DNA of 64,000 bases from Paenirhodobacter ferrireducens (GTDB lineage Bacteria; Pseudomonadota; Alphaproteobacteria; Rhodobacterales; Rhodobacteraceae), in NCBI RefSeq assembly GCF_004022265.1, contig NZ_SAVB01000023.1, forward strand, positions 1 through 64,000, given 5' to 3'. Both the position numbers and the translations under genes were made by a program. Below are positions 16,164 through 47,839 of this stretch, piece after piece. The notes under the pieces are model-generated. The model was not told where the DNA came from. It saw only the letters and a program-made list of their open reading frames with translations, and ran no database searches. Position 1 is the first letter of the stretch; every line of letters starts with the position of its first letter.

Positions 16164-16212
16164 TCCTCTTCCCTCTCTCCCTGAAGTGCCGCGACGGTAC
16201 GCGGCAGTATGC

Positions 16213-16228
16213 ATTCACATACCTGAAT
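16213..16228. promoter_or_regulatory. SqrR/BigR-type operator upstream of sqr
   Basis: ATTCACATACCTGAAT is an exact match to the ATTC-N8-GAAT pattern reported for the sulfide-responsive repressor SqrR of R. capsulatus. It sits 50 bases before the sqr start codon, a position suited to blocking the promoter. The regulator gene is not in the window. Confidence 0.8.
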
Positions 16229-16285
16229 GTGACGGAAATCTTCTGTCAAGCGCAATGATGCAGGTCAATTCCCGCGCGGACCAAC

Positions 16286-16314
16286 GAAAAAAGGCGGGCC
16301 CGGGGGCCCGCCTT
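16286..16314 (-). terminator. Terminator of the xdh/purine-transport operon
   Basis: Read on the minus strand, AAGGCGGGCC and GGCCCGCCTT form a stem of ten pairs followed by six T residues, 22 bases after the stop codon of the BMP-type binding protein. It is a classic intrinsic terminator. Confidence 0.88.
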
Positions 16315-16335
16315 CCGTGCAACCGGGGCTGCAGA

Positions 16336-17418: not shown

Positions 17419-17461
17419 GGGAACTCCCCGTGGTTGAGGCCCGAAGGCCCGGATGGCTGCC

Positions 17462-33100: not shown

Positions 33101-33119
33101 GAAGTGGCAGCCCGTAGGG
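33101..33119. repeat. Attachment site attL
   Basis: GAAGTGGCAGCCCGTAGGG is identical to 47761-47779, which spans the 3' end of the tRNA-Glu gene. This is the distal copy created by integration; it is not part of a tRNA here. Confidence 0.9.
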
Positions 33120-33257
33120 CTGTCATGCGGGGGTAAATGTAGAACATACCGTTTCCGTTATTCATATAAATCAATCACTTACAGATTCTGCCGGGGCGCT
33201 GGATCAAGATGTAGTTGTGGGTTAGTTTGGGGGCCAGTTTTCCGGCAGAGGCATTCC
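33120..33257 (+). promoter_or_regulatory. Left-end region with integrase promoter
   Basis: The 138 bases between attL and the integrase start codon are AT-rich in the middle (ATTCATATAAATCAATCACT) and contain TTGGGGGCCA at 33228-33237, which recurs at 47704-47713 near the right end. The region probably holds the integrase promoter and integrase arm sites. Confidence 0.4.
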
Positions 33258-34553
33258 ATGGGTACGTTGAAAGCGTCCGAACTCGACGCCCTCCCTCAGG
33301 GCAAGAAGCACCACGACGGCGACGGCCTCTACTTCGACAAGAAGGTGCGCGGCGCTTCATGGATATACAAGTTTACGCTGCACGGACAGGCCCGCGAGAT
33401 GGGGTTGGGCAAATACCCAGAGATCGGCCTGACCAAGGCGCGTGAACTGGCGGGGAAGGCGCGTGCTTTGCGTGCGGAAGGCAAGGACCCGATCCGGGAG
33501 CGTGAAGCAGCCAAGCGGCTGGGCATCACGTTCGAAGAGGCGGCGCGAGAGTACTGGCGGGTGCACTGCCAGAACCGCGCGCGGCCAAACGACTGGATCA
33601 GGGGCATGGAGATCAACGTCTTCCCCCACATCGGCAAGAAGGCGGTTGTGAGCCTCTCGCCGCCAGACATCATCAAGTTCATGAAACCCATCTGGGGGCT
33701 GGAAAAGACGCGAAAGCTCCGCCAGTGGATCAACGCCGTGATTGGCTTCGTCTCGGCGGATGATCCTCGCGTGGATCGCGAGATCATGAACCGTGTGGCG
33801 GGTGCCTTGGGGCCGCAGAACATCACCTATGAGAACCTTGCCGCAATCCAGTGGAATGCCATTCCCGACCTCTGGTGCGCGCTGCCTCCGACGCTGGTCG
33901 GCCTCAGCATGAAGATGCTGGTCCTGACTGGGCTTCGGGTTCGACCGGTGATCCTTGCAGATTGGTCAGAGTTCGATTTCACCGAGAACATCTGGGTCGT
34001 GCCACCGGGCCGGGTGAAAGGCTGGAAGTACCGCTACCGGGTCCCGCTGACGCGGGCCATGATCGAGACCCTGAACGAAGCAGGACGGCGCTGGGGCAAA
34101 TCTGGCCTCGTCTTCCCATCAGCGGACTCGAAGTCGGGCCATCTCTCCAACAACGCCCATCGCCTTTGGCTCCATGACCATGAGTGGAAGGATGAGAACG
34201 GTGAACTGGCGACGGCGCACGGGCTGCGCAGCGCGGTTCGGACATGGATGCACGACCGAAAGCCGCCAGTGGACTTCAGGCTGTCGGAGCACATCCTGCA
34301 GCACATGGGTTCGCTCGGCAGCCAGACGGAGCAAGCCTACCTGCGTTCGGATGCGCTCGATCATCGCCGCGAGGTTCTGGAGGAATGGTCGGAGTTTGTG
34401 GTCAGTAAGGAGGTGGATCGGAGAAGGGCGGAGGGCGCGCGTCAGCGGGCATTGGACCGGCTGGACGAGGTCGTGCTGGCGGACGGACGCACGCTCCGCG
34501 AGGCAGAGGAATGGGCGCGTCCTGAGGACAAGGACGAGTGGCTGGGTGGTTGA
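33258..34553 (+). CDS. int: P4-type tyrosine integrase
   Basis: The 431-residue site-specific recombinase has the N-terminal DUF4102-type arm-binding region (LKASELDALPQGKKHHDGDGLY... GKYPEIGLTKAREL), a core-binding domain and a catalytic domain with Arg in LVLTGLRVRPVI, His-x-x-Arg in TAHGLRSAVRTW, and a late His plus Tyr in EHILQHMG...TEQAYLRSD. It should act on the tRNA-Glu attachment site 139 bases away. The ATG at 33258 is used because the family motif begins right after it; the longer frame back to 33093 crosses attL. Confidence 0.94.
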   Translation: MGTLKASELDALPQGKKHHDGDGLYFDKKVRGASWIYKFTLHGQAREMGLGKYPEIGLTKARELAGKARALRAEGKDPIREREAAKRLGITFEEAAREYWRVHCQNRARPNDWIRGMEINVFPHIGKKAVVSLSPPDIIKFMKPIWGLEKTRKLRQWINAVIGFVSADDPRVDREIMNRVAGALGPQNITYENLAAIQWNAIPDLWCALPPTLVGLSMKMLVLTGLRVRPVILADWSEFDFTENIWVVPPGRVKGWKYRYRVPLTRAMIETLNEAGRRWGKSGLVFPSADSKSGHLSNNAHRLWLHDHEWKDENGELATAHGLRSAVRTWMHDRKPPVDFRLSEHILQHMGSLGSQTEQAYLRSDALDHRREVLEEWSEFVVSKEVDRRRAEGARQRALDRLDEVVLADGRTLREAEEWARPEDKDEWLGG

Positions 34554-34597
34554 AAAAGGTACGTTGTGCCCACTATGGTGCCACCGTGAGGTGGACC

Positions 34598-34987
34598 ATG
34601 GCAAAGATCAAAGCAGATGATGAAAAGCTGAAGGTCCGCACGGTCTCGCTGCCCATGGACCTTTACGAGCGCCTGCAGCCCATCGTGGATGCTGCTGTTG
34701 CTGCCGGGGAAAACGAGGCATTCGTGCTGCGGCAGGTTGCTCGCATCTCTCTCCAGCGGCAATGGACGGCGACCTTCCTAGAAGTGCCAGCAGAAGTTAC
34801 GCGCGAGCGGGATCGCGACCGCGTGACGCCCCGGTTGGCACTCCCGCCAGCCATGGACGAGCAGGTGTTCGCGCTGGCGGAGTATTCCGCATTCAGCCGG
34901 TGGTTCACCTTCGCGGTGGAGCAGTTCTTGCGACAGTACCAGAAGGGAGACCCCCATCTGTTCGTCGTCCTGCCGCGCCGCAGTTGA
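34598..34987 (+). CDS. Hypothetical protein, ribbon-helix-helix-like N-terminus
   Basis: The 129-residue protein is not recognised. Residues 10-45 (KLKVRTVSLPMDLYERLQPI...) resemble the strand-helix-helix start of ribbon-helix-helix DNA-binding proteins, but I cannot confirm the fold. It follows the integrase by 44 bases on the same strand, where satellites and plasmids often encode regulators. GGTGGACC precedes the ATG. Confidence 0.6.
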   Translation: MAKIKADDEKLKVRTVSLPMDLYERLQPIVDAAVAAGENEAFVLRQVARISLQRQWTATFLEVPAEVTRERDRDRVTPRLALPPAMDEQVFALAEYSAFSRWFTFAVEQFLRQYQKGDPHLFVVLPRRS

Positions 34988-35145
34988 GATTCACTTTTGG
35001 ATTTCTAACCCATATTTCCAGTACCTACGCGCTCGACCCGCCCCTCCCGGTACCCTCGTCGCGGGTCCCTGTGTGCTATTTTTGCAACGGTATCGGTCAA
35101 GGGTCGCGCGGGCGGAGTCGTTGTGAGCCGCCCGCGCGCGCCTTG

Positions 35146-35508
35146 CTAGGCCATGGCAGGGAACACGTGGCGGATATTGTGCCGCGCCTTCATGTCATCC
35201 AGCGCCGCGCGCAAGGCGTGCCCGGCGGAGTCGATTGCCGCCGTGGTGCTGGCAGGTGACCAGATAGACGCGCGGGCAATGGCAAGGCGACGGCGCGCGC
35301 TGGCAAGGTCCTGAAGACGTTCCAGACGGGCAAGCTCTTGCGCCTTGTCCATGAGCTGGGCCGTCAGCTTTTCAACGTCCTGTCCTATCGTTGCATGGCG
35401 CAAGGCGTCCTTTGCCGCGCGTGCCGCCATGTTGACGCGCGGGCAGGATATGCCGCGCCGTTCCAGCGCCTTCACCTCTTTCAGCATGGCTTGGATGTCA
35501 CCGATCAT
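35146..35508 (-). CDS. Hypothetical small helical protein
   Basis: The 120-residue protein is unrecognised. It is mostly charged, alanine-rich helix (MLKEVKALERRG, LTAQLMDKAQELARLERLQ) and may form a coiled coil. A good ribosome site (AGAAGGAG) lies before the ATG, which supports it as a real gene. It is the only minus-strand gene between the integrase and the iteron region, so it may be transcribed from the iteron stretch. Confidence 0.6.
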   Translation of the reverse strand: MIGDIQAMLKEVKALERRGISCPRVNMAARAAKDALRHATIGQDVEKLTAQLMDKAQELARLERLQDLASARRRLAIARASIWSPASTTAAIDSAGHALRAALDDMKARHNIRHVFPAMA

Positions 35509-37154
35509 GTTCGACTCCTTCTGTTGATCGTGTCACGATACTACACAATGACAGAACGATTCGCTATTTGATTCAATATGATAGCCGGATTCAACGCTAG
35601 CCAACGCGCTAGCATTCCAGCCAGCCCGACGGCGCGCGCCGCACGGTCGGACGGCAGGGGTGGAGGCGGGCGATCTCGCCGGGGCGCGCCCAGCCGGGCA
35701 CCTCGCGGCGAGGGCAAAATCGAAATCGCCGAAAGCGGATTCAAAAAATGAGAACTCATAGAAAAAAACGGACTCCCGTCGAATCAAAAACACTCGCGCG
35801 TAGAATCGAAAACGCTCGGGCGTAGAATCAAAAATGAGAGATCGTAGAATCAAAAATTCAGCGAGCGTCAGACCAAATCGACTGAGCGCCAGATCGAGCC
35901 TGAGCGGGCATCGAGGTCGAGCGCGGCGAACGCGTGAGCGATGATGCTGACAGGCCGCAAGGGGCAGGTCGGCACAAGCCCGCTAACGCGGGGCACGACC
36001 AAGCCATCAAGCCACCCAGCCGCATAGCCGCCGATGCCAGCCTAGCCTTAGGCACAACACTGCGGTCAAAGCGCCAGAGCGCGCCAGACAGCCTCGCTAT
36101 CATCGACATGGGTCGACACCTGCCTGACGTCCGAGGCGCGCTCCTGAGGGCGTTCCAGCGCGTTCTCGGCGCATGCCTGTGGGCCTGTCTGCCGTAGTGG
36201 CATCTGTGTGACGTGGAAAGCCTCATCTTGGCGTGTGGGTGTGTTGCGGTGAGGTGGACTTGCCCGAGGCCCGCCGTTAGGCGGGTTGGGTGGCTGGTGG
36301 GCTGGCTGGGCTGTTCTGCGGGTGCGCGGCTGGAGCCGATCCGGGAATGGCATGACCCCGCTGACGCGGGCGGACTGACCATGTGGCTGCGATGGCTAGG
36401 CAGGCACGGACCAAGTCGGTGGCGGTGCGCGCGGAGAGGGGGACATTGGTGGTGAGGTGACGAACCGGTGGGACGGTAACGGGCTGTGTGGACAGGCAGG
36501 GTGATGGTGTTGGCCCGCGTTAGCGGGCTACCAGATTGTGTGTATGTGGGCCTGCTGACTACATGATAGTGTGTAGTGATCCCGTTGAATGCGGCGAATG
36601 CCTAATTCGGCACTAGGGATGGTGGCGATTCGGGGTGAATCTGGCTAGATGTGGGGTGGCTGAAGGTGGCATTTTCTGGGGAATCGAGGGGGCCTATCTC
36701 GAATCCGAGGGGGACCCCGGTCGTAATTCTGAGAGGGTCCCTCGATTGGCTGGAAAGAGGGGTGGGGGTCTTCATTTCCTGAGGGTCCCTCGGCCCGGAT
36801 GTGCTATTTTCCGCAATAGGTCACATGGGATGTGACGAAATGCAGCGGTCGGGCCAATAGAATCAAGCAGTTGAATGCGATGCTGCGATGCAGCAAATTG
36901 GGTGCTGAAATCGGCACATCTCGCTCCGGCAAATCGTCACATCTGGTAGCGCGATGGGTCAGGAAGGATGACTTATGTGTCTGGCGAGGGTGTGGGGCCG
37001 GTTCGAAAAGCGGGTGGGTCCCCTATGTGTGCGCTTTTGCATAAATTTGACCATTTGGTCAAATAATGGTGCAGCAGCACACAAAGAAGCCGCCCCGAGG
37101 GAGGCGGCTGCTGGGAGCGTGAGGTTGGTGGAGGTCGGCTGAGGTTCTGGGAGG
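35509..37154. other. Gene-free stretch of 1.6 kb with iterons and palindromes
   Basis: I see no convincing coding sequence here; short frames lack ribosome sites and normal composition. It contains four 22-bp iterons (35778-35865), four copies of the CCCGC-loop-GCGGG palindrome, two copies of GAGGGTCCCTC (36733-36743 and 36781-36791), and several related GAGGGGG runs (36680-36720). Such a concentration suggests a replication, partition or regulatory locus. Confidence 0.55.
35778..35865 (+). repeat. Array of four 22-bp iterons
   Basis: The core GTMGAATCRAAAA starts at 35778, 35800, 35822 and 35844, exactly 22 bases apart, with a variable nine-base remainder rich in CTCG-type sequence. Degenerate relatives appear just upstream (GGATTCAAAAAATGAGA near 35737 and ATAGAAAAAAACGG near 35758). 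Two-helical-turn spacing on one strand is typical of replication initiator or partition protein binding arrays. Confidence 0.8.
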
Positions 37155-37538
37155 TCAGATGAGGCCCGGCACCGGTTCGGTCACGAGGCAAACCTCCTGC
37201 CAATCCATGCTGCCATCCTCTTCATTGTGGTTCCATTCCACGATCAGCCTGAAGTCGAGCAGCGCGCCACGCGGGCAAACCTTTCGGACGGCTTGCATGA
37301 GGGCGTCGATGGCGCGGTCGACCTTGATCATGACCATGAAGCTGGGACCGTCGTCGAATTGGTCCAGTGGGCGCTCGGCTCCAGTCGTCAGCTTGAAGCC
37401 ATCTTGCTCCAGAATCTGGCACAGATCGTCACGGAAGCCTTCACTGACCAAAGGGCCGTAGACGCTGACTTCAAGCAGGACGGCGGTATCAGGACGGGAC
37501 GGGTCTCCGAACGGGGTTGGCATTTCGTGGACGGGCAT
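37155..37538 (-). CDS. Hypothetical protein beside restriction-modification genes
   Basis: The 127-residue protein is unrecognised. It looks like a small soluble alpha/beta protein rich in acidic residues, with no signal peptide or membrane helix. A strong AAGGAG site sits before the ATG. It is divergent from the PLD-fold nuclease (200-base gap), so it may be a regulator or accessory factor of the restriction system, but nothing in the sequence proves this. Confidence 0.65.
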   Translation of the reverse strand: MPVHEMPTPFGDPSRPDTAVLLEVSVYGPLVSEGFRDDLCQILEQDGFKLTTGAERPLDQFDDGPSFMVMIKVDRAIDALMQAVRKVCPRGALLDFRLIVEWNHNEEDGSMDWQEVCLVTEPVPGLI

Positions 37539-37738
37539 GTGGGTCTCCTTAGAATCGAATCATCGTGTCATTTTGAATTACGGTAATGCCCGTCCTTAGG
37601 AGCTGTCAACGAGGATTCTGCTTGCCTGACAATGTCTTCTGCATCCTGTCATCCTGCGTGGAACAGGTCAGTGACAATGACGAAAACAACGCCCGATTGT
37701 CACAGCGGCTTGCCCAAGCCCCCCTTTGGTCGCTACCC

Positions 37739-38971
37739 ATGTCAGCAATACTTGTCAGGGAGTTAGGCGTGAAGCGGTTCATTCTGCAGGCAGTTCAGGA
37801 CGACGACCATTTGGCACCGGCGCGCGAGGTCTTTCAGCTCGCGAATCTCGACCGGGCGATCATCAGCACAGCGTTCATGAGCGCCTCTGGCTTGTCCCTG
37901 TTGCAGGCGGTCCTTGACCCCATTGCAGGCAAGACGAAGATTTTCGTTGGGATCAGGAACGGCATTACAACCGTCCAGTCGATCCAGAAGGCGTTAGAGA
38001 TCGGCTGCGAGACCTACATGGTCGATACAGGCAGCCGAAACCGTATCTTCCACCCGAAGCTCTACTATTCCCGCAGCCCGGCTGTGGGGAGATTGCTGCT
38101 GGGAAGTGCGAACCTGACTATGGGCGGGCTGCGAACGAACATCGAGGCCAGTGTGCTGCAGGAGTTCGACGCCGCCGATGCTGCCAGCGTGGCGTTGATG
38201 GATGATCTCGAAGCCAAGCTGGATGCGATGATCGTTGATTTCCCTGAACATGTGATCCGTGCCGTCGACAACGTCCAGCTTGCAGCGCTTCAAGCATCGG
38301 GTCGACTTGTCGATGAACGAAAGACCCGTCCACCGGAACCGGCGGGTTCGTCTGCAAATCGCGATCTCGACACGATCCCGAAGATGGTGCTCAAGACGAA
38401 TCCGATTGCGGTGCCCAAGCCTGCAGCGCCACCGGCAGCGGCTGTCCCGCCTGCTCCTGCTCCGGCGGCACCTGCTCCCGCTGCGCCTGTTGCGGCAGCG
38501 CCCGCTCCGCTACCTGCGCCAGTCGAAGAGCGTTGGGAGCAAGTCTGGGAGAGCAAAGGTCTGACACGTCGTCATTTGAACATCCCGGATGGGGATAACA
38601 CGAACCCGACCGGGTCCATGCTGATGGGTGTCGGTGCATGGGACGGTATCGACCAACGGCACTACTTCCGCGATGAGGTCTTTGCGGCACTTGATTGGGT
38701 GGCGGATACCGCCCCGAAAACGTCGCACATCGAAAGGGCGGAAGTGCGCATTCGTCTGATCATCAAAGACGTCGATTATGGGCTTCACACCCTTGAGCTT
38801 TCGCACAACACGAAGACCGACACGAAGTCTTATGAACAGCGGAACAGTATGACCCAGTTGCACTGGGGACCTGCTCGTCCGCTGATCGCCCATGAAGACC
38901 TACTGGACCGTATCCTCAAACTCTACCGGGCAACCGCAAACCCGAAGCTATTCACCTTGGAGATCGACTGA
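37739..38971 (+). CDS. PLD-fold restriction endonuclease-like protein
   Basis: The 410-residue protein has a phospholipase-D-type nuclease domain: the catalytic HPK at residues 105-107 (RIFHPKLYY) and the partner GSANLTMGG at 122-130, as in BfiI/NgoFVII-type restriction enzymes, which use one such motif per subunit and need no metal. A Pro/Ala-rich linker (about 215-255) leads to a C-terminal domain of some 150 residues (LTRRHLNIPDGDNTNPTGS...) that probably recognises DNA. It converges on, and overlaps by 24 bases, an adenine methyltransferase. The start is uncertain: no clear ribosome site, and the frame is open back to 37586. Confidence 0.78.
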   Translation: MSAILVRELGVKRFILQAVQDDDHLAPAREVFQLANLDRAIISTAFMSASGLSLLQAVLDPIAGKTKIFVGIRNGITTVQSIQKALEIGCETYMVDTGSRNRIFHPKLYYSRSPAVGRLLLGSANLTMGGLRTNIEASVLQEFDAADAASVALMDDLEAKLDAMIVDFPEHVIRAVDNVQLAALQASGRLVDERKTRPPEPAGSSANRDLDTIPKMVLKTNPIAVPKPAAPPAAAVPPAPAPAAPAPAAPVAAAPAPLPAPVEERWEQVWESKGLTRRHLNIPDGDNTNPTGSMLMGVGAWDGIDQRHYFRDEVFAALDWVADTAPKTSHIERAEVRIRLIIKDVDYGLHTLELSHNTKTDTKSYEQRNSMTQLHWGPARPLIAHEDLLDRILKLYRATANPKLFTLEID

Positions 38972-40567
38972 TCCCTCGTCTGGCAGGCGCTGGCGACGGT
39001 TTCGCAGCATCGCCCACGCCGCCAGAAGGTCCATCTGCTCGCCCTTCGTCAGACCTGCCAGCACGATCTCAGACTGTGCTTCCAGCGTGTCAGCGACGGA
39101 CTCTTCCCTGATCTGACGGTCGAGGCTTGAGATGTCCGTGGTCAGGTTCTCCGGCGACGGAACCAACAGCTTTTCGATCTCGGATGGCACCAGTTCCAGA
39201 ACGCCTCCACCGTAGTGACGGCCTTCCAGTTCTGCACTGAGAGCGGTCAGGCTGTTGATGAAGCCATAGACAAGCTGGGCGGCTGTTCCACGCTTGGCGC
39301 GGATGCGGTAGGCGGTGTCAGTCGTGTATGCGCTTGCCGTGTTCAGGATGAGGCGCGGGGTGTCGTGGCTGCGCTTGAGCATGCCGACCTCGGTCGAATA
39401 GACCGATGGCACCGAGTACCATGGCTTGCGGATGCGGCACTTGTACCGGGTATGCAGGCCTTCATCTTCCCCGAGAGAGATGTAGCGACGGGCCTTGCGA
39501 TCCGCTTCCACGCTGTCGTCCTTGAACCACAGGAAGTTGGTCGGCTTGCCCGTGGCGGCGTTCCGAGCGTGCTGGGCATCATCATAGATAACGCCGGGGC
39601 AGTGGTCGCTGCGCCCAAACATCGGGTGTGCCCATTCGGACAGGCCGTGTTTCTCGACAACGTCATCGGTCACAAGAAAGAAGCTGTTCGCTCCGGTGAC
39701 GATCCCGACGTCCACGGTCGCGACATCCTTAAAGCGATGGAAGTCCTTGCGGCTCTCGATCTCATCAAGGATCGCCAGCGTGTTGGTCGCCACCAGCGCG
39801 CGGGTCCACTTCCCCACCACGGTCTTGCCATTGATCGCGCGAGGGGCGTTGAAGATGTCCTCGGGGTCCTGCCGCAGGAAATCCCTGCCAGTGACTCTGT
39901 GGATGCCAAGGCCTTCGCCATGTGCCTTCGCAGTGGCCTTCTTCTCTGCCATCAACAGGACAGCGCCCTGCAGGGTTCCTTCGAACCAGATTTCTTGCGG
40001 GTCCACGATAACGATGCGGCGGCACTGTTGCCCGAGGAAGGTCCTCAGCGACTGGGCGTGCATCACGTGGACGATCTCAGAGGGAACGACCATTGCCAGC
40101 CTGCCGCCCGGACGGAGCAGCGAGATGGCAGAAAGGATGAAAGGGACCCACGCGTTCGTGTGCTTAGTGAACTTGCAGTCCAGGCGCGCAAAGACCTTCT
40201 CGGCGTTAGCCTGAAATTCGGAAGGCAGGTACTGGTAGCGGATGAACGGGGGATTGCCGAGGACGGCGTCGAACTGCCCATCTTTCGCGCTGACCGCCCA
40301 GCCGAGGAAGTCGCGGTTGTGGATGGTGCAGTTGGGCAGCCCGCGCCCTGCGGCTTTGGCGGCTTCTTCGTGCGAAAGCTCGAAAGCGGTGACGGTCGCG
40401 CCGGTTCCCATCAAGGCCTCGAAGAACGCCCCATCGCCACAGCTCGGTTCCAGCACCTTGGTCCCGGTTGTCGGTTTCACCCAGCGGGTCAGAAAATGCG
40501 CAAGGTCAGCCGGGGTGTAGTACCCACCGCGCAGCTTCTGCTCTGACTCGAACTGGATGAAATTCAT
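38948..40567 (-). CDS. Eco57I-type N6-adenine DNA methyltransferase
   Basis: The 539-residue enzyme has motif I VLEPSCGDGAFFE (38-50) for S-adenosylmethionine and the catalytic NPPF at 105-108 (VLGNPPFIRYQ), giving N6-adenine specificity. The long C-terminal part (residues 270-520) is the likely target-recognition domain. It converges with the PLD-fold nuclease, the expected partner, and should protect the host sites. Its promoter lies in the origin-like region to the right. Confidence 0.9.
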   Translation of the reverse strand: MNFIQFESEQKLRGGYYTPADLAHFLTRWVKPTTGTKVLEPSCGDGAFFEALMGTGATVTAFELSHEEAAKAAGRGLPNCTIHNRDFLGWAVSAKDGQFDAVLGNPPFIRYQYLPSEFQANAEKVFARLDCKFTKHTNAWVPFILSAISLLRPGGRLAMVVPSEIVHVMHAQSLRTFLGQQCRRIVIVDPQEIWFEGTLQGAVLLMAEKKATAKAHGEGLGIHRVTGRDFLRQDPEDIFNAPRAINGKTVVGKWTRALVATNTLAILDEIESRKDFHRFKDVATVDVGIVTGANSFFLVTDDVVEKHGLSEWAHPMFGRSDHCPGVIYDDAQHARNAATGKPTNFLWFKDDSVEADRKARRYISLGEDEGLHTRYKCRIRKPWYSVPSVYSTEVGMLKRSHDTPRLILNTASAYTTDTAYRIRAKRGTAAQLVYGFINSLTALSAELEGRHYGGGVLELVPSEIEKLLVPSPENLTTDISSLDRQIREESVADTLEAQSEIVLAGLTKGEQMDLLAAWAMLRNRRQRLPDEGSVDLQGE

Positions 40568-41140
40568 GATGCTCCCTGACGCCGGGCGTTTGTTCTCTTT
40601 GCGTTCTCCACATTAAGGCGTGATGAACGGGACGTGCCCCTGTTGACGTCTTACCCGCGACCGTCAGCGGTTGGCAACATTGATTGTGGATTCCGGGCAC
40701 CTATCCACAGGATATGGGGCGGGCGGCGAGATCGCTTCGGGCCGCGATGTGCGGAGCGTAGATCACGAGGTGACCGGTCCTGCCACCACAGGACCGTATT
40801 CGTGGGGAGGGGAATACGGTCGGAATACGGTCGGTTAAGCTATTGTAATCATTATGGAAAGTGCCATTTACCGTATTCCGCGCGGTTTTCGGCCCCTCAC
40901 GGCGTAGGTAAAACACGTGTGTGTGTGGACAGAGAGAATTTTTCCTGTGGTCTGGTATGCCTTTTGGAATACGGTAATACGGTCGAAAGACAGAAAACCC
41001 AATAAAATAAGGGGTTTTATGGCCTTTTCGCGACCGTATTAGGACCGTATTCCCACCGTATTCACCGTATTCCACCCCATCAGCGGCCCCTCTCGACAGT
41101 AAAATCGCCCCTCGACCGGTCGGTCGCCCCTCGGAAACGC
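40568..41140. other. Putative replication origin of the element
   Basis: This 570-base gene-free region lies next to the primase/helicase gene. It contains ten copies of ACCGTATTC/GAATACGGT (40793-41072), an AT-rich block (AAAACCCAATAAAATAAGGG near 40995), and two sequences like DnaA boxes: CTATCCACA (40701-40709, one mismatch to TTATCCACA) and TGTGGATTC on the other strand (40685-40693). This is the expected design of a P4-like ori bound by its own initiator. Confidence 0.65.
40793..41072. repeat. GAATACGGT iteron cluster
   Basis: Copies in + orientation (ACCGTATTC) start at 40793, 40870, 41033 (last base differs), 41044, 41055 and 41064; in the opposite orientation (GAATACGGT) at 40812, 40823, 40967 and 40975 (first base differs). 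Several neighbours are 11 bases apart, one helical turn, so bound proteins would line up on one face. Confidence 0.85.
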
Positions 41141-41163
41141 AAAAGCCCCGCTGACGCGGGGCC
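41141..41163 (-). terminator. Terminator after primase/helicase gene
   Basis: GCCCCGC-TGAC-GCGGGGC (41145-41162) is a perfect hairpin; on the minus strand it is followed by four T residues. It lies 44 bases past the stop codon of the minus-strand replication gene and shares the loop design of the other palindromes in the element. Confidence 0.8.
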
Positions 41164-41206
41164 TCGGCAAGATAGCAAATCAGAAAGTCAGCAGACAGCA
41201 GCTCAA

Positions 41207-43372
41207 TCACCGACTGAACGGGTTCGCCACAGGTGCAGCCGTCTCAGCGGCACGCAGCAGGGCGCTCTGCTGCCTCGCCTGCCCGGTACGACCGCGACGT
41301 TCTCCGGTGGGCGTGGGCCGCGTCAGCGGCACGACATTCTCTGCCGCCATGACAGGCTCGTGCGCCGGAACCGCATCCGCGACCCGGTCGATGACCTGTT
41401 CGAGATACCAAGGGTAGCCGCCGTTGCCCCGCTTGCTGTACCGGGTCACCTTCACAGTCCGACCATCCCCGAGCTTGAAGAGGCGATCCTGCATGCCAGA
41501 CAGTGCACTGCCGAACGACTTGCTGGCGTAGTCGAACTGCCCGCCATCACGAACCCGACCAACGTCCAGAAGGATTTCGTTCTCACAGGCAAGGTCAGTC
41601 AAGGCATGGACTTCAAGACGCCCTTTCTCTCCCAACCCGTGCTTTTCCACCCACGTGTCGAACAGGGAAACCCAGCCATCCTCCTGTTCATCACCTGCCA
41701 CCGTCGCCAGCTTGTCCCGGTTCGACTGCCAGCTCGTCCAATGCGGCGAGGCAGCTTCCAGAATTCCGCCGATCACATGGCGATACCGCTCAAAGCGACC
41801 GATGATGGGGGCGTGCTTCGGTTTCGGCATGCCCTTCGCGATCCAGTTCTCGACAAGCACCAGAAGCGCGCTGAGGATTTCACCGCGATGTTCCGAAACG
41901 TGGGCAGGAAGGGCAGCGTGCTTCCAGCCCGTCCGCTTCTCCGGGTTGGCCGTCTGCGGCACCAGTTCGAGAAGCGTCATGCGCTGGATCAGTTCGTCCG
42001 TCATCCGAGGCCGGTTCCCGATCAGCATGAAGGAGGTCGTGACGTTGATCGTGATGTCCTTGCTCTGGCCCAGTTCGCGGTCAACGTACACGCCCTCGGT
42101 GAAGAGCGTGGCAAGCGTCGGGGAGTCGATCACCCGAGACGACGGAAGATTATCCCACGCGATCACCGACGCCCCAGAACGCAGCGCGCCGATGATGGAC
42201 TTGCGCCGCTCTTCCTCACTTGCGGCAAGGGGGCGCATGCCGGTGGTGCCGCTGACGATCACCTGCAGGATCGACGCCAGAAGACCGCCCCCGGCGCGCC
42301 GCGCCGTCTTGGAGATCAGGAGCGGCATAACCGGCCCCGAGATCATCGGACGAACAAGCTGCTCAAGCAGAAAGCCCACGGCAGACAAGAACGACGGCGG
42401 AACTGCCGTAGTGCCCTTAGCCCAACACTTCTCGCCCTCGCCCCGCAGGACTGCGCGTTCGAGATCAGCACGACTGACGCCGTCCATCTCAAAGTCGCAG
42501 AGGATGTCGACGAGAGTTTCGCGCGCCTTCGCCAGATCAGCAGGAGTGAGCGAGCGAGACGGGCGGATGACCTCAAGCCCATCCGGCGGAGCATAGAAGT
42601 ACCCCGAGGAGTGGTAGCCGGGGATCATGATCAGCTTGCCATCTTCGGAATACATCGGCACCGAGATGACGCCACGCAACTCCGGCACGGGCTTTTCCGG
42701 GTGATCGAAAACCTGCTGCACGACATCATCAGGTGCGCTGACATATCGAAAGTGATCGCCTTCACCGGCGCGCTTGCGCCAGTCCGTGATCTCGTTGAGG
42801 CGCGACCCGAAGGTCTTCCGGTCGAGTTCGACGATCACCGCGCGCAGCGGATCGCCCTGCCAGCGGATTTCGACCCACTGACCATTTCGCTGGAAAAGGG
42901 TAGGCTTACCCGTGGGCCTGTTCCCTGCCTCGATGGCGTGCATCGCGTAGTTGCACTGGGCCTTGAAGTCGTCTTCGTTCACGACGTTCGTATCGTCGCC
43001 CTTTGCCAAGGCACGCTTCTCGGCGTCGAGAATGTTCTGCGCGGCGTCACGCACGGACTTCAGATAGGGCATGTCGAGGACGTTCCACCGCGTCTTCATG
43101 TTGGTCATGAAGTTGCGCACCGTCACCTCGCCCTCGCCGCTCTTGAGCAGCCCGGCAATCATCAGCGCCAACTCCGCCGTCTGCGGGGCCGACTTCCACT
43201 GCTTCTGCATGGTCTCAGAGTACGAAGTGGCGGGGCACTTCTGAATTGCCTCGCGCTGTTCCGGGGTAATCTCGGCCAAAATCTTGCGTCCGCCCGCCGA
43301 CAGGCGGGTTCCACCATAGATCGTCAGGGCCTTCTTCGTGGCCTTGGGTTCGTCGTCGGTCTTCGTATTCAT
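41207..43372 (-). CDS. Replication protein, primase/helicase-like with degenerate P-loop
   Basis: The 721-residue protein is the element's likely replication ATPase. The C-terminal half resembles phage/satellite DUF927- or D5-type helicases: a P-loop-position segment LLISKTARRAGGGLLASIL (352-370), a Walker B-like VIAWDN (403-408), a sensor-like MLIGNRPR (449-456) and an arginine-containing region after it. The canonical GKS/GKT lysine is missing in the P-loop. The N-terminal 300 residues are not recognised; a primase role is inferred only from size and context. It borders the iteron origin, as alpha protein does in P4. Confidence 0.7.
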   Translation of the reverse strand: MNTKTDDEPKATKKALTIYGGTRLSAGGRKILAEITPEQREAIQKCPATSYSETMQKQWKSAPQTAELALMIAGLLKSGEGEVTVRNFMTNMKTRWNVLDMPYLKSVRDAAQNILDAEKRALAKGDDTNVVNEDDFKAQCNYAMHAIEAGNRPTGKPTLFQRNGQWVEIRWQGDPLRAVIVELDRKTFGSRLNEITDWRKRAGEGDHFRYVSAPDDVVQQVFDHPEKPVPELRGVISVPMYSEDGKLIMIPGYHSSGYFYAPPDGLEVIRPSRSLTPADLAKARETLVDILCDFEMDGVSRADLERAVLRGEGEKCWAKGTTAVPPSFLSAVGFLLEQLVRPMISGPVMPLLISKTARRAGGGLLASILQVIVSGTTGMRPLAASEEERRKSIIGALRSGASVIAWDNLPSSRVIDSPTLATLFTEGVYVDRELGQSKDITINVTTSFMLIGNRPRMTDELIQRMTLLELVPQTANPEKRTGWKHAALPAHVSEHRGEILSALLVLVENWIAKGMPKPKHAPIIGRFERYRHVIGGILEAASPHWTSWQSNRDKLATVAGDEQEDGWVSLFDTWVEKHGLGEKGRLEVHALTDLACENEILLDVGRVRDGGQFDYASKSFGSALSGMQDRLFKLGDGRTVKVTRYSKRGNGGYPWYLEQVIDRVADAVPAHEPVMAAENVVPLTRPTPTGERRGRTGQARQQSALLRAAETAAPVANPFSR

Positions 43373-43470
43373 GCCGACCCCCAGTCAGGGTGGCTCAGGT
43401 GATCTTCGTGCATCATTTCTTCCTTCATGCTTGCCATATGGTGGTATTTCATGCTACATTCTTGGGGCAT
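43369..43470 (-). CDS. Possible 33-residue leader peptide before the replication gene
   Basis: A short frame from ATG at 43470 (MPQECSMKYHHMASM...) ends in a TGA that overlaps the ATG of the replication gene (ATGA). It is rich in Met, His and acidic residues. GAAGGAG lies about 18 bases before the ATG, with a CCGC-TGAC-GCGG hairpin between them that also supplies an in-frame stop. ATG codons at 43452, 43437 and 43428 are alternative starts. It could couple translation of the replication protein; coding status is uncertain. Confidence 0.35.
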   Translation of the reverse strand: MPQECSMKYHHMASMKEEMMHEDHLSHPDWGSA

Positions 43471-43619
43471 CAGGCCGCGTCAGCGGTACTCCTTCTGCCT
43501 TGCCACCCTCGATCCGCTAGCCACGGGTCGGGGGTTTTTCTGTTCTAGCCGATGTCAGGCATTCTGTCTAGAAGATATTGAAAAACAACAGTTTTTCGGC
43601 TTCAAGCCGACTTTAAGGC

Positions 43620-43928
43620 TTACGCTGCCGCGTCGGTTTCGTTCGTGATGACCCAGTTCTTCATGACGTGGGCTACATCGGATGCGGATTTCAGATCGGA
43701 CCGATCACCCTTCAGGCCAAAGGGCGGGCAGACGGTCACCTCACCAGCCGTGATGCGGCGGTCGATCTCGGCCCGAAGGAGTTCCTCTTCGGCGGCAATT
43801 TCTTCGGCGGACCAGTACAGCTCACGGATCGCGGCCCCACGGCGGCGAGCCATGTCGCGCTCCTTTTTCTGGAGCGCTGCCTCCTTGGTCCGCTTGTTCA
43901 GTTCGATAAGGTGCGCAGCGCGGGCCAT
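43620..43928 (-). CDS. Hypothetical small charged protein
   Basis: The 102-residue protein is unrecognised. It is strongly basic and acidic (NKRTKEAALQKKERDMARRRG, EEIAAEEELLRAEIDRR) and probably helical throughout its first 60 residues. The ATG overlaps the stop of the preceding gene (ATGA), so it belongs to the satellite's minus-strand operon. A 247-base gap, containing the possible leader peptide, separates it from the replication gene. Confidence 0.7.
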   Translation of the reverse strand: MARAAHLIELNKRTKEAALQKKERDMARRRGAAIRELYWSAEEIAAEEELLRAEIDRRITAGEVTVCPPFGLKGDRSDLKSASDVAHVMKNWVITNETDAAA

Positions 43929-44293
43929 CAGTACGTCCCCACGCGCCCGGCGACGAAGGGATGCAGGAGGCCAAGCGGGTCGATGGCCTTGAAAGCGGCG
44001 CGGAAATCACCAGCCAGAAGGTCGAGATCGAGTTCCTCTTCCGCTTCGGGGAAGGGTGCAGTCTTGGTCCATACACCGCCGCGAAGCTGGAACCCAACCG
44101 CGCGGGCAACGATGTGGGCGTACTTCGCCCCGATGAGTTCGATCAGCTCGGCCTGATCGACGTTGACCGTGATCCGGCGCGTAGGACTCTGAATTTCGCG
44201 GAGGGCGTCACCGACGAGGGCGGTCAGCTCCTTGATGATCTGCTGTTCGGTGACCGCCGTCATGGTGGCGGTGGTGTGAGGGTCAAGCGTCAT
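43928..44293 (-). CDS. Hypothetical protein of the satellite operon
   Basis: The 121-residue protein is unrecognised. Residues 15-60 (EQQIIKELTALVGDALREI... VNVDQAELIELIGAKYAHIV) suggest a small helical domain; the C-terminus is acidic then hydrophobic. I chose the ATG at 44293 because the upstream extension is a proline/arginine-rich antisense-type sequence. It overlaps the next gene by ATGA. Confidence 0.7.
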   Translation of the reverse strand: MTLDPHTTATMTAVTEQQIIKELTALVGDALREIQSPTRRITVNVDQAELIELIGAKYAHIVARAVGFQLRGGVWTKTAPFPEAEEELDLDLLAGDFRAAFKAIDPLGLLHPFVAGRVGTY

Positions 44294-44330
44294 AGTTCTG
44301 CTCTGTTCTGGTTGGGTTGGAGGTGGAAGG

Positions 44331-44552
44331 TCAGGCGATGGTGGGTTCTTCGGGCGGGGTATCGTCGACGGGTTCTTCAGGGGTGGGGCGGGGGCGGGAT
44401 TTCGTCGCGACGAAGTCCAACCCGTCGTTGGTCGAGACCACCGGGATTCCGGCGTCAAACAGCTCCTTGGCCTTGTTGGCCTTGGCCTCGATCTCGGGGC
44501 TGTTGAACATCCCGCGCGGGTGACCGGCACCCTTGTATACGTAGCCAGACAT
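44331..44552 (-). CDS. Hypothetical small protein with proline/glutamate-rich tail
   Basis: The 73-residue protein begins MSGYVYKGAGHPRGMF and ends in a PEEPVDDTPPEEPT stretch. It is not recognised. An excellent ribosome site (AAAGGAG) before the ATG supports expression. It lies in line with the other minus-strand genes. Confidence 0.65.
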   Translation of the reverse strand: MSGYVYKGAGHPRGMFNSPEIEAKANKAKELFDAGIPVVSTNDGLDFVATKSRPRPTPEEPVDDTPPEEPTIA

Positions 44553-44575
44553 GGCTTTTTCTCCTTTAAGTTGTG

Positions 44576-44827
44576 TCAGGCGGACCGGACAAGTTTCACG
44601 TGCTCGTCGGTGGCGGACTTGAAGCCCGCGCGAGTCTTGAGGGTGTCGATCTCGGCGGCGATGCGGCTGGCGCGGAGCCGGGCACCTTCGACCAGCGCGC
44701 GGTACATGCTGTTCATATCGTTGAGCCGGTCCTTGAGGACGCGGTCCTCGGGAAATCTGACTGCCATCCAGTGGCTCGCGGCGGGGTATTTGATGATGAG
44801 GTGGCGGACTGCTTCGATACGAGTCAT
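44576..44827 (-). CDS. Hypothetical small protein
   Basis: The 83-residue protein is unrecognised: a helical N-terminus (TRIEAVRHLIIKYPAASHWMAV) then a charged helix. The ATG at 44827 gives a compact protein; the longer frame to 45064 is arginine/proline-rich antisense sequence. It is 121 bases downstream of the preceding gene. Confidence 0.6.
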   Translation of the reverse strand: MTRIEAVRHLIIKYPAASHWMAVRFPEDRVLKDRLNDMNSMYRALVEGARLRASRIAAEIDTLKTRAGFKSATDEHVKLVRSA

Positions 44828-44948
44828 GGTGGGTACTGCTGGTTGTGGTCTAGGGTCTGGTGGACCGACCCGCCGAAGACCCGGAAGCGGGCCGGTCCAA
44901 CGCAGTCGCCCCCAGATCGACCGCGTGTTCGTGTGTTCAGAGCACGTG

Positions 44949-45302
44949 TCAGGCGAAGCGTTCGCGCAGATCGGGCAGAACGCCACCTGCGGCCTCAAGC
45001 AGCCGCGCAGCCGCCTCTTCGCGTGCAGCGCGCTCACGCGCGCCCCGAGCCGCTGCCTGCTCATTCAGGCGGACCTCGTCCTCGATAAGCTGCGCGACCT
45101 CACGCATCCGAAGTCCTTCGACGGCGCGGATCGCCTCATCGACCTTGGAGGCCCGGCGGAGCCAGCCGAGCAGCACATCCATCGGCGGGCGGTCACCCTT
45201 CTTCGCGGAGATCAGCGCGCGATGCGCGAAGATGGTGCAGGCGGCGGGGCTGGAGAGCAGTTCGTTGAGCTGGTCAGGCGTCGGGGTTTTTTCGATAGTC
45301 AT
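44949..45302 (-). CDS. Hypothetical alanine/glutamate-rich protein
   Basis: The 117-residue protein is unrecognised. Its second half (MREVAQLIEDEVRLNEQAAARG and on) looks like a long amphipathic helix or coiled coil. It overlaps the preceding gene by ATGA. There is no signal peptide. Confidence 0.65.
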   Translation of the reverse strand: MTIEKTPTPDQLNELLSSPAACTIFAHRALISAKKGDRPPMDVLLGWLRRASKVDEAIRAVEGLRMREVAQLIEDEVRLNEQAAARGARERAAREEAAARLLEAAGGVLPDLRERFA

Positions 45303-45823
45303 GCGGAGTTCTTGAGATTGCGGAGGTCGGCGGCTTCGGCGGGGGTCAGTGGCGTGGCGAGCGCGAGCAGTTCCAACCGCTCCAGCCGGGTGACGGGGTG
45401 CCGACCTCCCAGCAGATAGATGCTGTCGGCGGCGGCAAAGGCCTCGCGGGGGTCCGCCAGATCGGCTGCGGCAGCATCGAACAGGGCCACCAGATCGTTC
45501 CAGATCACGTCGTCCACGACACGCGCGGGGTATTCGAGGATTGCCTCGATCTTCGGCAGGATGTCGGCAGGTGCGTGGGCAGGAGGGCCGCGCCGCGCCA
45601 GTTCGGACGGGGCCTCTTCGTGGATGCGGCCAATTTCGATTGCCAGTCGCACGGCAGACTTCGACACCACCGAGGCTTCAGAAATGGCCGTGCGCAGCAC
45701 GCTTGCCGGATCGCCAGATGCCCTTGCCTCGGCCATCAGGCGCTTCAAGGCGCGCGACGACTGTGCCGCCGTCGCCATCAGGTGTTTCAACGCCGGGCGG
45801 CTTTCGAGGACGTTCTTGCTCAT
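45299..45823 (-). CDS. Hypothetical protein of the satellite operon
   Basis: The 174-residue protein is unrecognised and predominantly helical and alanine-rich (SSRALKRLMAEARASGDP, IGRIHEEAPSELARRG). It overlaps the terminase-like gene upstream and the next gene downstream by four bases each, so it may work with the small terminase homologue, but no function is visible. Confidence 0.68.
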   Translation of the reverse strand: MSKNVLESRPALKHLMATAAQSSRALKRLMAEARASGDPASVLRTAISEASVVSKSAVRLAIEIGRIHEEAPSELARRGPPAHAPADILPKIEAILEYPARVVDDVIWNDLVALFDAAAADLADPREAFAAADSIYLLGGRHPVTRLERLELLALATPLTPAEAADLRNLKNSA

Positions 45824-46311
45824 CGCGGCGTCACCACATTCAACGATTCAAGGGTCTGGATCAGGTTGTCCGTTCTGACGACCTGCTGCTTGTCCGCCGC
45901 CCGCAGGGAGTGCAGTTGGGCCAACACGCGGCTGCTGATGGTCGTCAGCACATCGCGGGCCTGCGCAGCCTCACGAGCAAGGCCGTTTCCATCACAGGCG
46001 CGGACAAGTTCAGCCACATTGTCCAACACGCCATTCAGAAGCTCTTCGAAGCCGTCGAAGACATCGTCTTCGAAATCATCCCACCGACTGGCCCGCTCCC
46101 GTTTCAGGTAGTCGATCCGGGCCTTGACGTGCGGCTGGCGGAGCAGGTTATTTGCCATCTGCGCCGCAGATTTGCGCGCGCCGTAGGCTGCCTGAATCGC
46201 CCGCGACTGGGTCACAGCGCCGGTTGCCATCATCTGACAGAACTTTTCGTGCTTCTCATTCGGGAGGGGCGTTTCGCCCCGGTACCCGTCTGCCACACCA
46301 CGCGGGGCCAT
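45820..46311 (-). CDS. Terminase small subunit-like protein
   Basis: The 163-residue protein carries the Terminase_2-type DNA-binding start: NEKHEKFCQMMATGAVTQ... AIQAAYGARKSAAQMANNLL... HVKARIDYLK (about residues 18-70), the region by which small terminases recognise pac/cos sites. The helical C-terminus would mediate oligomerisation. No large terminase, portal or capsid gene is present, so it could redirect a helper phage's packaging motor, as TerS of chromosomal islands does. The start overlaps the previous stop by one base. Confidence 0.78.
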   Translation of the reverse strand: MAPRGVADGYRGETPLPNEKHEKFCQMMATGAVTQSRAIQAAYGARKSAAQMANNLLRQPHVKARIDYLKRERASRWDDFEDDVFDGFEELLNGVLDNVAELVRACDGNGLAREAAQARDVLTTISSRVLAQLHSLRAADKQQVVRTDNLIQTLESLNVVTPR

Positions 46312-46562
46312 CAGCCGTACTCCGCCCGGAAAAGTACCGTCTGGACGTCGTTCTCCGATACCGGCGTCGGGTCGCAATCCGGCGTCGTGAGCGGCGCGAT
46401 CAGATCACGGACCTCGGTGCTGGTCAGGCGCGCGGCGCGCAGGGCACGGACGAGCTTGTCGCCGTCGCCCAACGCGGCAGCGACGTCATTCTCGCGGGCG
46501 AGGACCCGGCAGGCGTGATGCGAGCTGAGGGCCAGCTTACGGAGAGCGTCGATAGTGTGCAT
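46311..46562 (-). CDS. Hypothetical small protein
   Basis: The 83-residue protein is unrecognised and mostly helical (TIDALRKLALSSHHACRVLA, DGDKLVRALRAARLTST). It is joined by one-base stop/start overlaps to the gene on each side, placing it firmly within the operon. Confidence 0.65.
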   Translation of the reverse strand: MHTIDALRKLALSSHHACRVLARENDVAAALGDGDKLVRALRAARLTSTEVRDLIAPLTTPDCDPTPVSENDVQTVLFRAEYG

Positions 46563-47011
46563 CAGGCCAGCCCGTGCTTCCGCGCGTAGTCGAGCTTTGC
46601 CTTGCCTTCGAGCGTCGACAGGACCTTGACGTGATCAGCCGCAACCAGCTTGTCCGCCTGCGAACCGGTCAGGCCGTGCTGGCGCGCATAGGTCATGCGT
46701 TCGCTGGGCCGGAGGCACTGAATTGCATCCTCATGCCCGCGAGCAACACGCTGGGCGTCCTCGCGGGCCTTGAGCCGCGCCGCGACCGAGGGGATGGCGC
46801 GCAGCTCGTTCACGGCCACACTCAGGTCGACCTCACGGTCTGCCAGCACGTGGAGCTTCACCGACTCGATCTGCACAATTTCATCGGGCGTGAGGTCGTT
46901 CAGCCCGAGTTCGTGGGCGGCGACGACGGCGATCTTGTTCGTGGCTTCGACGAGGGCGGCTACGCTGGACGGGCCGAGTACTCCGACGATGGTCTTGATG
47001 GATTCGGACAT
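46562..47011 (-). CDS. Hypothetical protein with internal repeat
   Basis: The 149-residue protein is unrecognised. Its C-terminal part contains two similar segments, MTYARQHGLTGSQADKL and LDYARKHGLA, which may be a short duplicated helix-turn unit. It has no membrane or secretion signal. It starts two bases after the stop codon of the HTH gene. Confidence 0.65.
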   Translation of the reverse strand: MSESIKTIVGVLGPSSVAALVEATNKIAVVAAHELGLNDLTPDEIVQIESVKLHVLADREVDLSVAVNELRAIPSVAARLKAREDAQRVARGHEDAIQCLRPSERMTYARQHGLTGSQADKLVAADHVKVLSTLEGKAKLDYARKHGLA

Positions 47012-47012
47012 T

Positions 47013-47570
47013 TTAGGCGGCTTTCTGGAGGTGGCGGAGGGTGGCGAGCTGGGGGACGGCGAAGGCGTGGCCCCAATGCCGCCACGCGTCGGCGGATTGC
47101 GGCAGTTCGGAATGGTCGCCGCCGAAGACGTAAAGCATGACGCTCGGATGGATCAGAGCGAGGTCGAGCAGCACGCCAACGTCGGCTTTGAATGCTTCGG
47201 CCCAGAGCGCACCGATCAGCCCCGCGTGCAGTGCACCGCGCACCGCGAGGTACCGGGAAAGCTCAAGCTCGGTCAGGCAGGCCCGCAGCTCGGCTGCGCG
47301 GCGTTCACAGTCGGCCCCAAGGGGCAAAGAAGGCTCCGCATTCCGCCGCTTGGCGTCGATCTTGAGGATCGCGAATGCCTCGTCGCTGTCGCAACCACGC
47401 TTACGCGCGCCCCGGAGCCGAACAATCGCCTCATCGGCCCGGAAGTGCGGTACGCGCCGGATGGTGACGCTGCACATCGGCATTCGGTTGAACCACTTGC
47501 GCACGCCCGCTTCGCTGACGCCCAGCGCGCCAGCGACGTCGTTCATCGTGATGGTCATGCGTTCGTACAT
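47013..47570 (-). CDS. Helix-turn-helix protein, first gene of the satellite operon
   Basis: The 185-residue protein starts with a HTH of MerR/excisionase style (TITMNDVAGALGVSEAGVRKWFNRMP, residues 6-31), followed by a helical domain with no clear match. As the first gene of the minus-strand operon it may be the operon's regulator or an AlpA/Xis-like factor, or a DNA-binding replication or packaging factor. GAAGGAAG precedes the ATG. Function is inferred only from HTH and position. Confidence 0.7.
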   Translation of the reverse strand: MYERMTITMNDVAGALGVSEAGVRKWFNRMPMCSVTIRRVPHFRADEAIVRLRGARKRGCDSDEAFAILKIDAKRRNAEPSLPLGADCERRAAELRACLTELELSRYLAVRGALHAGLIGALWAEAFKADVGVLLDLALIHPSVMLYVFGGDHSELPQSADAWRHWGHAFAVPQLATLRHLQKAA

Positions 47571-47760
47571 CGTGAAAGGCTTCCTTCATTTCGTAACATA
47601 AAACTACACAATATGAGGGAAAATGTCAAGGTGACCAACAGAACGGTTCACGGATGAGGGTAGGATGAGAGGGGAGCGCGCCAGAAGCGACTTGTGGGCT
47701 GGCTTGGGGGCCAATCATCGAATCGGCGTTAGCCGATTGATCCAAAACGATTTTCTGGAT
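47571..47760 (-). promoter_or_regulatory. Right-end region with operon promoter
   Basis: The 190 bases between the HTH gene and attR include an AT-rich part (AACATAAAACTACACAATAT) suited to the minus-strand operon promoter, the sequence TTGGGGGCCA at 47704-47713 shared with the left end, and an AATCGGC-GTTA-GCCGATT hairpin at 47721-47738. Confidence 0.45.
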
Positions 47761-47779
47761 GAAGTGGCAGCCCGTAGGG
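47761..47779. repeat. Attachment site attR
   Basis: GAAGTGGCAGCCCGTAGGG, identical to 33101-33119, covers the 3' end of the tRNA-Glu gene (acceptor strand and CCA) plus four bases beyond it. Integration leaves the tRNA intact. Confidence 0.9.
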
Positions 47780-47839
47780 GAGTCGAACCCCTCTTTTCAG
47801 GTTGAAAACCTGACGTCCTAACCGATAGACGAACGGGCC
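47765..47839 (-). tRNA. tRNA-Glu (anticodon UUC)
   Basis: The minus strand folds as a standard tRNA of 75 nt including the encoded CCA: acceptor GGCCCGT/ACGGGCT, D-arm GTCT...AGGAC region, anticodon stem CAGGT/ACCTG with loop TTTTCAA giving anticodon TTC, and T-arm AGGGGTTCGACTCCCCT. Its 3' end is the integration site of the element to the left. Confidence 0.96.

Follow-up and report, generated by a model that had tools for sequence, protein, structure and literature searches.

Here, we propose that a 14.7-kb island in a 64,000-nucleotide stretch of Paenirhodobacter ferrireducens DNA (contig NZ_SAVB01000023.1, positions 1 to 64,000; the whole stretch is called the window below) is a phage satellite, apparently intact and integrated at a specific site, from a new family in Alphaproteobacteria, and that prolate-head siphophages resembling DSS3P8 are the most likely helpers of that family. 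We give this reading a probability of roughly 0.66. It is favored because the island combines attachment (att) sites, an integrase, a replication protein (Rep) with iterons and a protein with the DNA-binding domain of a small terminase subunit (TerS), because related islands have a common core, and because Rep, TerS, a tape measure protein and the 12-bp motif CCGCTGACGCGG are common to the islands and DSS3P8-like phages. The original prediction, made from the letters of the window, had suggested a phage satellite in an alphaproteobacterium; this is also the best-supported reading here.

The island and its mobility genes

The island spans positions 33101-47779 and is flanked by identical 19-bp direct repeats, GAAGTGGCAGCCCGTAGGG. 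The left copy (attL) lies at 33101..33119 and the right copy (attR), at 47761..47779, is the 3′ end of the integration target, a tRNA-Glu(ttc) gene (47765..47839, reverse strand). The site is unoccupied in G046, from the same genus, where the tRNA-Glu is intact and is directly adjoined by a stretch of about 18 bases nearly identical to the left flank of the window; since the genes farther left in G046 are unlike those of the window, this comparison tests the junction alone. The GC content is about 0.57-0.66 within the island vs 0.66-0.76 outside. The tRNA-integrated island is real, as it had been described. Just inside attL lies a tyrosine integrase gene of 431 codons (33258..34553, forward strand, start by coding score), which matches phrog_1 (E 3e-31) and the Pfam domains Arm-DNA-bind_3 (E 7e-16), Phage_int_M and Phage_integrase. 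With the att repeats, this integrase gives the island the site-specific integration expected of phage satellites.

The prediction of a replication protein beside an iteron origin was likewise borne out. Rep (721 residues, 41207..43372, reverse strand) is primase-helicase-like and matches phrog_10537 at E 5e-65 and phrog_19930, 'DNA polymerase/primase', at E 8e-19. No Pfam family was found for it above cut-off (Phage_P2_GpE, at E 0.09, lies below), and sequence searches of the PDB gave no meaningful match. The word ATACGGT/ACCGTAT occurs ten times in 40793..41070 and four times in the remainder of the 64 kb, and this iteron array is the probable replication origin. Judged from sequence alone, Rep and the iterons would provide the replication of its own that is a feature of phage satellites.

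The small-terminase homologue (163 residues, 45820..46311, reverse strand) proved to be related to TerS. Its residues 18-108 match PF03592 (Terminase_2) at E 6e-8 to 9e-8, and a similar region matches phrog_51, terminase small subunit, at E 6e-11. A ten-row profile of island TerS proteins found the Pam5 small terminase, of known structure, at E 1.2e-7; its next match, a repetitive designed protein at 5e-7, is not meaningful. The AlphaFold2 model (mean predicted local distance difference test score, pLDDT, 75.6; residues 1-7 and 141-163 below 50) has a helix-turn-helix (HTH) domain and two long helices, followed by an unreliable C-terminal tail. The top seven Foldseek matches of this model come from small terminases (SF6, SPP1-like and PaP3 phages); E stays at or above 0.001 for all seven, and the top two have probabilities of 1.00 and 0.99 across the DNA-binding domain. 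Because of these profile and structure matches, we consider the predicted N-terminal HTH DNA-binding domain to be of the TerS type, joined to a C-terminal part that appears diverged.

The accessory restriction genes stood in part. The methyltransferase is firmly supported (M.Eco57I-like adenine methyltransferase, 539 residues, 38948..40567, reverse strand; M_Eco57I_C E 2e-82, PADLOC MTase_II E 2e-191). Its partner is a weakly PLD-like protein and possible restriction nuclease (37586..38971, forward strand, start at 37586 or 37769), with PLDc_2 at E 2e-4, below cut-off, and PADLOC ZacB at 2e-6 and REase_II at 2e-5. Together they form a putative restriction-modification-like pair.

Such genes raise the possibility that the element mainly guards its host, with TerS-like proteins, and in one relative (L030) also a tape measure protein, serving as decoys, restriction genes serving as defence, and transfer being rare or of another kind. 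A phage-like DNA-binding domain on a diverged C-terminal part is what would be expected of a competitor, and defence-like cargo occurs both in the window and in a Ruegeria element (L020). However, one related island (L078) keeps a nearly full-length TerS, and a mobile cycle is favored by the precision of the att sites as well as by the integrase, Rep and iterons. We therefore regard a chiefly protective island as unlikely, though it is compatible with the satellite reading rather than its exclusive alternative.

None of the 19 open reading frames (ORFs) of the window that were scanned with Pfam and PHROGs matched a capsid, portal, tail or large terminase subunit (TerL) family above cut-off; as originally noted, and as in satellites, the virion gene set is incomplete. 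Elsewhere in the window's genome, one match to TerL_ATPase (PF03354, the sole TerL family sought there) was seen at G000:C19:59556-60053.

A family of related islands

Relatives of Rep were found in 17 of 295 genomes of the bacterial family, with the window's own and prophage-like loci counted, and relatives of TerS in seven of the 295 by single-sequence search, the window's own again included. One named Rep relative is in Ruegeria sp. A3M17 (60% in Rep), the strain that carries L020. The family itself was collected with g149, a 149-residue gene of no assigned function (46562..47011, reverse strand), whose profile gave 17 matches in 15 of 390 genomes of the order, spread over 13 of 139 genera. 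The neighborhoods of relatives were gene-called and then searched with profiles built in this analysis (TerS cut-off E 1e-3). Among 24 distinct g149 loci, Rep is present in 22, a serine resolvase in 19, a TerS match in 13 and an HTH match in eight; these counts are biased by the choice of loci, some having been fetched via Rep or TerS, and by a TerS profile that itself includes nine of the 13 TerS rows. The 12 loci fetched by g149 alone (L073, L075-L085) hold Rep in ten, the resolvase in nine and TerS in four (L075, L078, L079 and L080). The 24 do not include L022, L028 and L029, which have Rep (L022 also TerS) and no g149 match, and L031-L035, L045, L047 and L048, with Rep or TerS alone in common, were left out of the family.

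The usual gene order is HTH, g149, TerS where present, small genes, Rep, cargo and resolvase, and the integrase stands at one end or the other. A repeat was found at eight of 17 tRNA genes tested, giving eight islands of 12.9-16.2 kb bounded at both ends, at tRNA-Glu (the window and G217, different genera), Tyr, Leu (two), Thr (two) and Met. Two genomes hold two family elements each: G217:C8 has them at tRNA-Glu and tRNA-Leu, and the window's own genome has a second element, L073, at about 179846-191348 of G000:C38, with no TerS match and with ends that are not defined by repeats.

Rep, the iterons and the relatives' resolvase have a plasmid character, and 11 of the 24 loci lack a TerS match. 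It is conceivable, then, that these are integrative plasmid-like elements replicated by Rep, with dimers resolved by the resolvase and transfer by conjugation in trans, transformation or the host's gene transfer agent, the TerS-like protein acting as a regulator only. Against this, general Pfam and PHROG scans found no relaxase family in the 19 window ORFs, Rep matches plasmid records weakly (ten records, none covering 80%), and the links of Rep, TerS, tape measure and motif all point to one phage group, which makes a plasmid-like element quite unlikely in our judgment.

Links to DSS3P8-like phages

The phages in question are six siphophages of 146-149 kb that infect roseobacters and Rhodobacter (DSS3P8, RpoS-V10, RcXuper, RpAliso, MD18 and DSS3_MAL1), with hosts including Ruegeria pomeroyi DSS-3 and Rhodobacter capsulatus YW1 (DSS3P8, RcXuper and kin, in culture). 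They are the six best of the 53 phage records matching the window Rep, at 29-31% identity. The same six lead for the Reps of L025 (40-42% identity over 84-87%) and L030 (51-60% over 84-86%), and phages of this group also lead for the L046 Rep, in a match limited to its N-terminal third; CbK-like phages and others have more distant Rep homologues. A quick tree of 31 Reps places the three sampled DSS3P8-like phages among the island Reps, beside L078, L027 and L030, with a Shimodaira-Hasegawa-like approximate likelihood ratio (SH-aLRT) support of 99, and puts the window Rep on a separate branch with L020, L021 and L081. L034 and L043 form long branches, and only the grouping of phages with islands is used from this tree.

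The TerS proteins lead to the same phages. L078 TerS matches 23 phage records, headed by the TerS of the six DSS3P8-like phages (E 5e-24 to 2e-18, 34.5-44% identity, 78-90% covered), and in the five phages whose TerS region was fetched, TerS directly precedes TerL. The island TerS profile ranks these five phage proteins first of 2162 ORFs (E 3e-9 to 5e-9), and hhalign gave 96.7%. By pairwise blastp against four phage TerS, nine of 12 island TerS had a best E of 2.4e-4 or lower, E values that apply to this small set. L025 TerS found only three matches in 50,697 records (E up to 1), each weak and all DSS3P8-like; L079 TerS gave no phage match in the same kind of search, and the window TerS alone found nine weak phage records (best E 0.07), two of them in DSS3P8-like phages.

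A further link comes from L030 (G047), a 14.9-kb element at tRNA-Thr, which carries between its att repeats a lone open tape measure gene of 1041 codons (L030:14671-17796). The ends of its product match the 1909-residue protein of RpAliso (35% over 461 residues and 67% over 49), and the first three of its 74 matching records are DSS3_MAL1, V10 and DSS3P8. Phage tails measure about 0.15 nm per tape measure residue, which gives about 290 nm for 1909 residues and about 160 nm for 1041. The tail of DSS3P8, described as 300 nm long, is near the former estimate (PMC4961962).

The motif CCGCTGACGCGG surfaced when a packaging site of L078 and the phages was looked for among the words that four phage TerS regions share; of 35 such 12-mers, only CCGCTGACGCGG (and its reverse) remained. 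In the window it occurs at 34044..34055 (forward strand, inside the integrase gene), 36358..36369 (forward), 41148..41159 (forward, in a hairpin after rep), 41318..41329 (reverse, inside rep) and 43475..43486 (reverse, upstream of rep). Having been chosen as a word common to phage TerS regions and islands, it yields window counts that are after the fact; the comparisons with whole genomes and CbK-like phages were made later. The motif is rare in host chromosomes. The 4.07-Mb genome of the window holds 18 copies, eight of them in its two elements (0.12 expected, binomial 1e-13). The eight bounded loci together have 36 copies inside (115,589 bases) and none outside (90,499 bases); for the G217 element, the L043 row covers only a part. 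Of the copies in other hosts, 10 of 18 (G217), 4 of 14 (G047) and 2 of 6 (G336) lie in the elements. G046, which is island-free at the tRNA-Glu site and gave no g149 or Rep match, has three copies vs four in the reversed control. Among the phages, RpAliso has 26 copies, RcXuper 21, V10 12, DSS3P8 14 and DSS3_MAL1 21, and the CbK-like phages phiCbK and Gurke have none. In RpAliso, 14 of the 26 copies lie between genes, and the motif follows TerL in all five fetched phage regions. We do not claim CCGCTGACGCGG as a packaging (pac) site, a reading that was dropped because the phage copies are often terminator-like hairpins. The hairpin may be a signal common to the elements and their helpers for termination, replication or packaging.

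Homologues of Rep, TerS and a tape measure protein might also be remnants of a DSS3P8-like prophage, the more so as integrase and repressor genes occur in these phages and DSS3P8 has been called lytic with lysogenic potential (PMC4961962). To this must be opposed the recurrence of the same compact core across many genera, with att sites in eight cases. Moreover, when RpAliso was compared by tblastn (E 1e-4) with 26 island stretches from 25 elements including the window (276,762 bases, unbounded ends set by eye), its only matching ORFs were Rep, TerS, one tape measure protein and a distant integrase. No other RpAliso structural gene was found there, the structural genes of other phages having been partly tested, so that close relatives with full head and tail modules, which would speak for a decayed prophage, did not appear. 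The g149, HTH and 174-residue genes also lack a convincing counterpart among the RpAliso ORFs; the best g149 match (E 9e-4) is patchy, and the one match of the window g149 in phages is meaningless. Decay from such a prophage is in our view very improbable.

Several observations weigh against the satellite and helper reading. The element is known here purely from its sequence, from which we infer packaging, a circular form and transfer. Viral-contig scans (IMG/VR) with the window Rep, the window TerS, L046 g149 and the L024 Rep, in which only close relatives were detectable, returned no relative. The window's Rep and TerS are among the more diverged family members in the phage link: Rep has only 29-31% identity to the DSS3P8-like phages, 38 of its 53 matching records being Caulobacter phages, and the best phage records of TerS are weak and not DSS3P8-like. 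Terminase_2 was reached at E 0.01 by one of the ten island TerS rows, the TerS of L021, L022 and L026 (three of 12) have no clear similarity to phage TerS by pairwise blastp, and the loci without a TerS match include L073 of the window's genome. The tape measure link is not exclusive, since 38 of the 74 records of the L030 protein are Caulobacter phages, mostly with short stretches among the matches listed, and its middle resembles other siphophages. As to the motif, 16 of the 36 copies in bounded loci lie within called genes, and 10 of 18 copies in the window's genome, 8 of 18 in G217, 10 of 14 in G047 and 4 of 6 in G336 lie outside the elements. It is also true that the shared genes could stem from past exchange without present parasitism.

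Known satellites, proposed cycle and remaining genes

The original label of a PICI/P4-like satellite is not supported. Satellites of the P4 type are marked by an alpha-type primase-helicase, Psu, Delta and Sid. No such family appeared among the Pfam and PHROG matches of the window, P4 itself not having been compared directly. No match to the regulators of phage-inducible chromosomal islands (PICIs), AlpA in Gram-negative or Stl/Rpr in Gram-positive hosts, was found in the scanned window ORFs with Pfam, PHROG and NCBIfam; the HTH protein next to attR (185 residues, 47013..47570, reverse strand), a candidate regulator or excisionase with counterparts in relatives, had sub-threshold matches only, among them PF10668, Phage_terminase small subunit, at E 0.003. 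The PICI order of integrase, regulator, primase or Rep and packaging genes is also absent, as the integrase and the HTH-TerS-Rep row stand at opposite ends and converge. PICIs such as the SaPIs and, in Gram-negative hosts, EcCICFT073 are described with an integrase, their own Rep and origin, TerS in some and a similar size (PMC6092414). The island resembles them in size, tRNA site, integrase, Rep and TerS-type domain, the last with a putative role in packaging with a helper (by TerS or cos in PICIs), but differs in its regulators, gene order and phage links; membership in either class is highly improbable. The element would work like a satellite, yet fails PICI and P4 membership.

Other satellites offer partial parallels. 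PLEs, integrated satellites of the large lytic Vibrio phage ICP1, are described as encoding their own tape measure protein and forming chimeric tails about 10 nm shorter (PMC12987554), a likeness to L030 drawn from the published description rather than from sequence comparison, and with another host and helper. PICMIs of Vibrionaceae are described as small marine satellites that depend on virulent phages, lack genes for capsid remodelling and are packaged as concatemers; they sit beside fis with AlpA headed as a key regulator, whereas the islands here have tRNA sites, TerS and no AlpA match (PMC10803314). The DSS3P8-like (CbK-related) siphophages, with related Rep and TerS, the tape measure of L030 and the motif, are in contrast complete 146-149-kb phages with head, tail and TerL. 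In its introduction, PMC10803314 places PICIs in Firmicutes and Gammaproteobacteria and other named families elsewhere, with none in Alphaproteobacteria, and mentions VEIMEs and tycheposons. An alphaproteobacterial family of this kind was not found among the open-access titles and starts of abstracts listed; earlier sightings are possible, for example in subscription literature on VEIMEs and tycheposons.

If the satellite reading is right, helper infection would lead to excision of a circle by the integrase and the HTH protein, and Rep would start replication at the iterons. The TerS-like protein might mark element DNA for the helper TerL or compete with the helper TerS, and helper particles would then carry the element DNA away; with an element one tenth the size of the helper genome, this DNA would probably be a concatemer. 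The serine resolvase that most relatives carry, and for which family profiles gave no match in the window, would resolve the concatemer after delivery, and the restriction genes would protect the host against other phages. Members lacking TerS would need the helper's own, as EcCICFT073 is described to use (PMC6092414). We suggest, only tentatively and at somewhat less than even odds, a new family across many Rhodobacteraceae genera living on CbK-related DSS3P8-type phages, whose members take different helper steps, with TerS for the choice of DNA in L078, the window and others and a roughly half-length tape measure in L030 (tails of about 160 nm vs about 300 nm), with the CCGCTGACGCGG hairpin in common. 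Should this be true, satellite biology could be tested in roseobacters, using a defined family from Alphaproteobacteria whose candidate helpers are named and in culture, and the lone shortened tape measure and the shared CCGCTGACGCGG would give sharp predictions on the helper steps taken over.

The remaining genes of the island were called by coding score. Between the integrase and the restriction genes lie proteins of no assigned function of 129 (34598..34987, forward strand), 120 (35146..35508, reverse) and 127 residues (37155..37538, reverse); the first two gave no Pfam or PHROG match, the second having two NCBIfam matches far under cut-off, and the third had no match in Pfam, PHROG, PADLOC or NCBIfam. 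A 1.6-kb stretch without called genes (35550..37150) is rich in inverted and direct repeats. Upstream of rep, five small genes on the reverse strand (43620..45302) encode 102, 121, 59 or 73, 83 and 117 residues, two of which resemble, by eye only, small genes in the same position in relatives. The 174-residue gene after TerS (45299..45823, reverse) is present in relatives too, a profile from the window, L043 and L021 recovering L044, L075 and L079. An 83-residue gene (46311..46562, reverse) has a weak relative in L027 (E 4e-5). Non-core proteins were scanned against libraries as two sets of ten from 70, nine and ten of them from relatives, and other cargo of relatives was viewed at most by eye. 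The Ruegeria element L020 carries the PADLOC candidate pair PDC-M41A/B at 12473-14166 (E 8e-66 and 5e-100), and the G217 element L043 has, by eye, a response-regulator-like protein and a 1164-residue CheB/CheR-like protein at 14657-18509.

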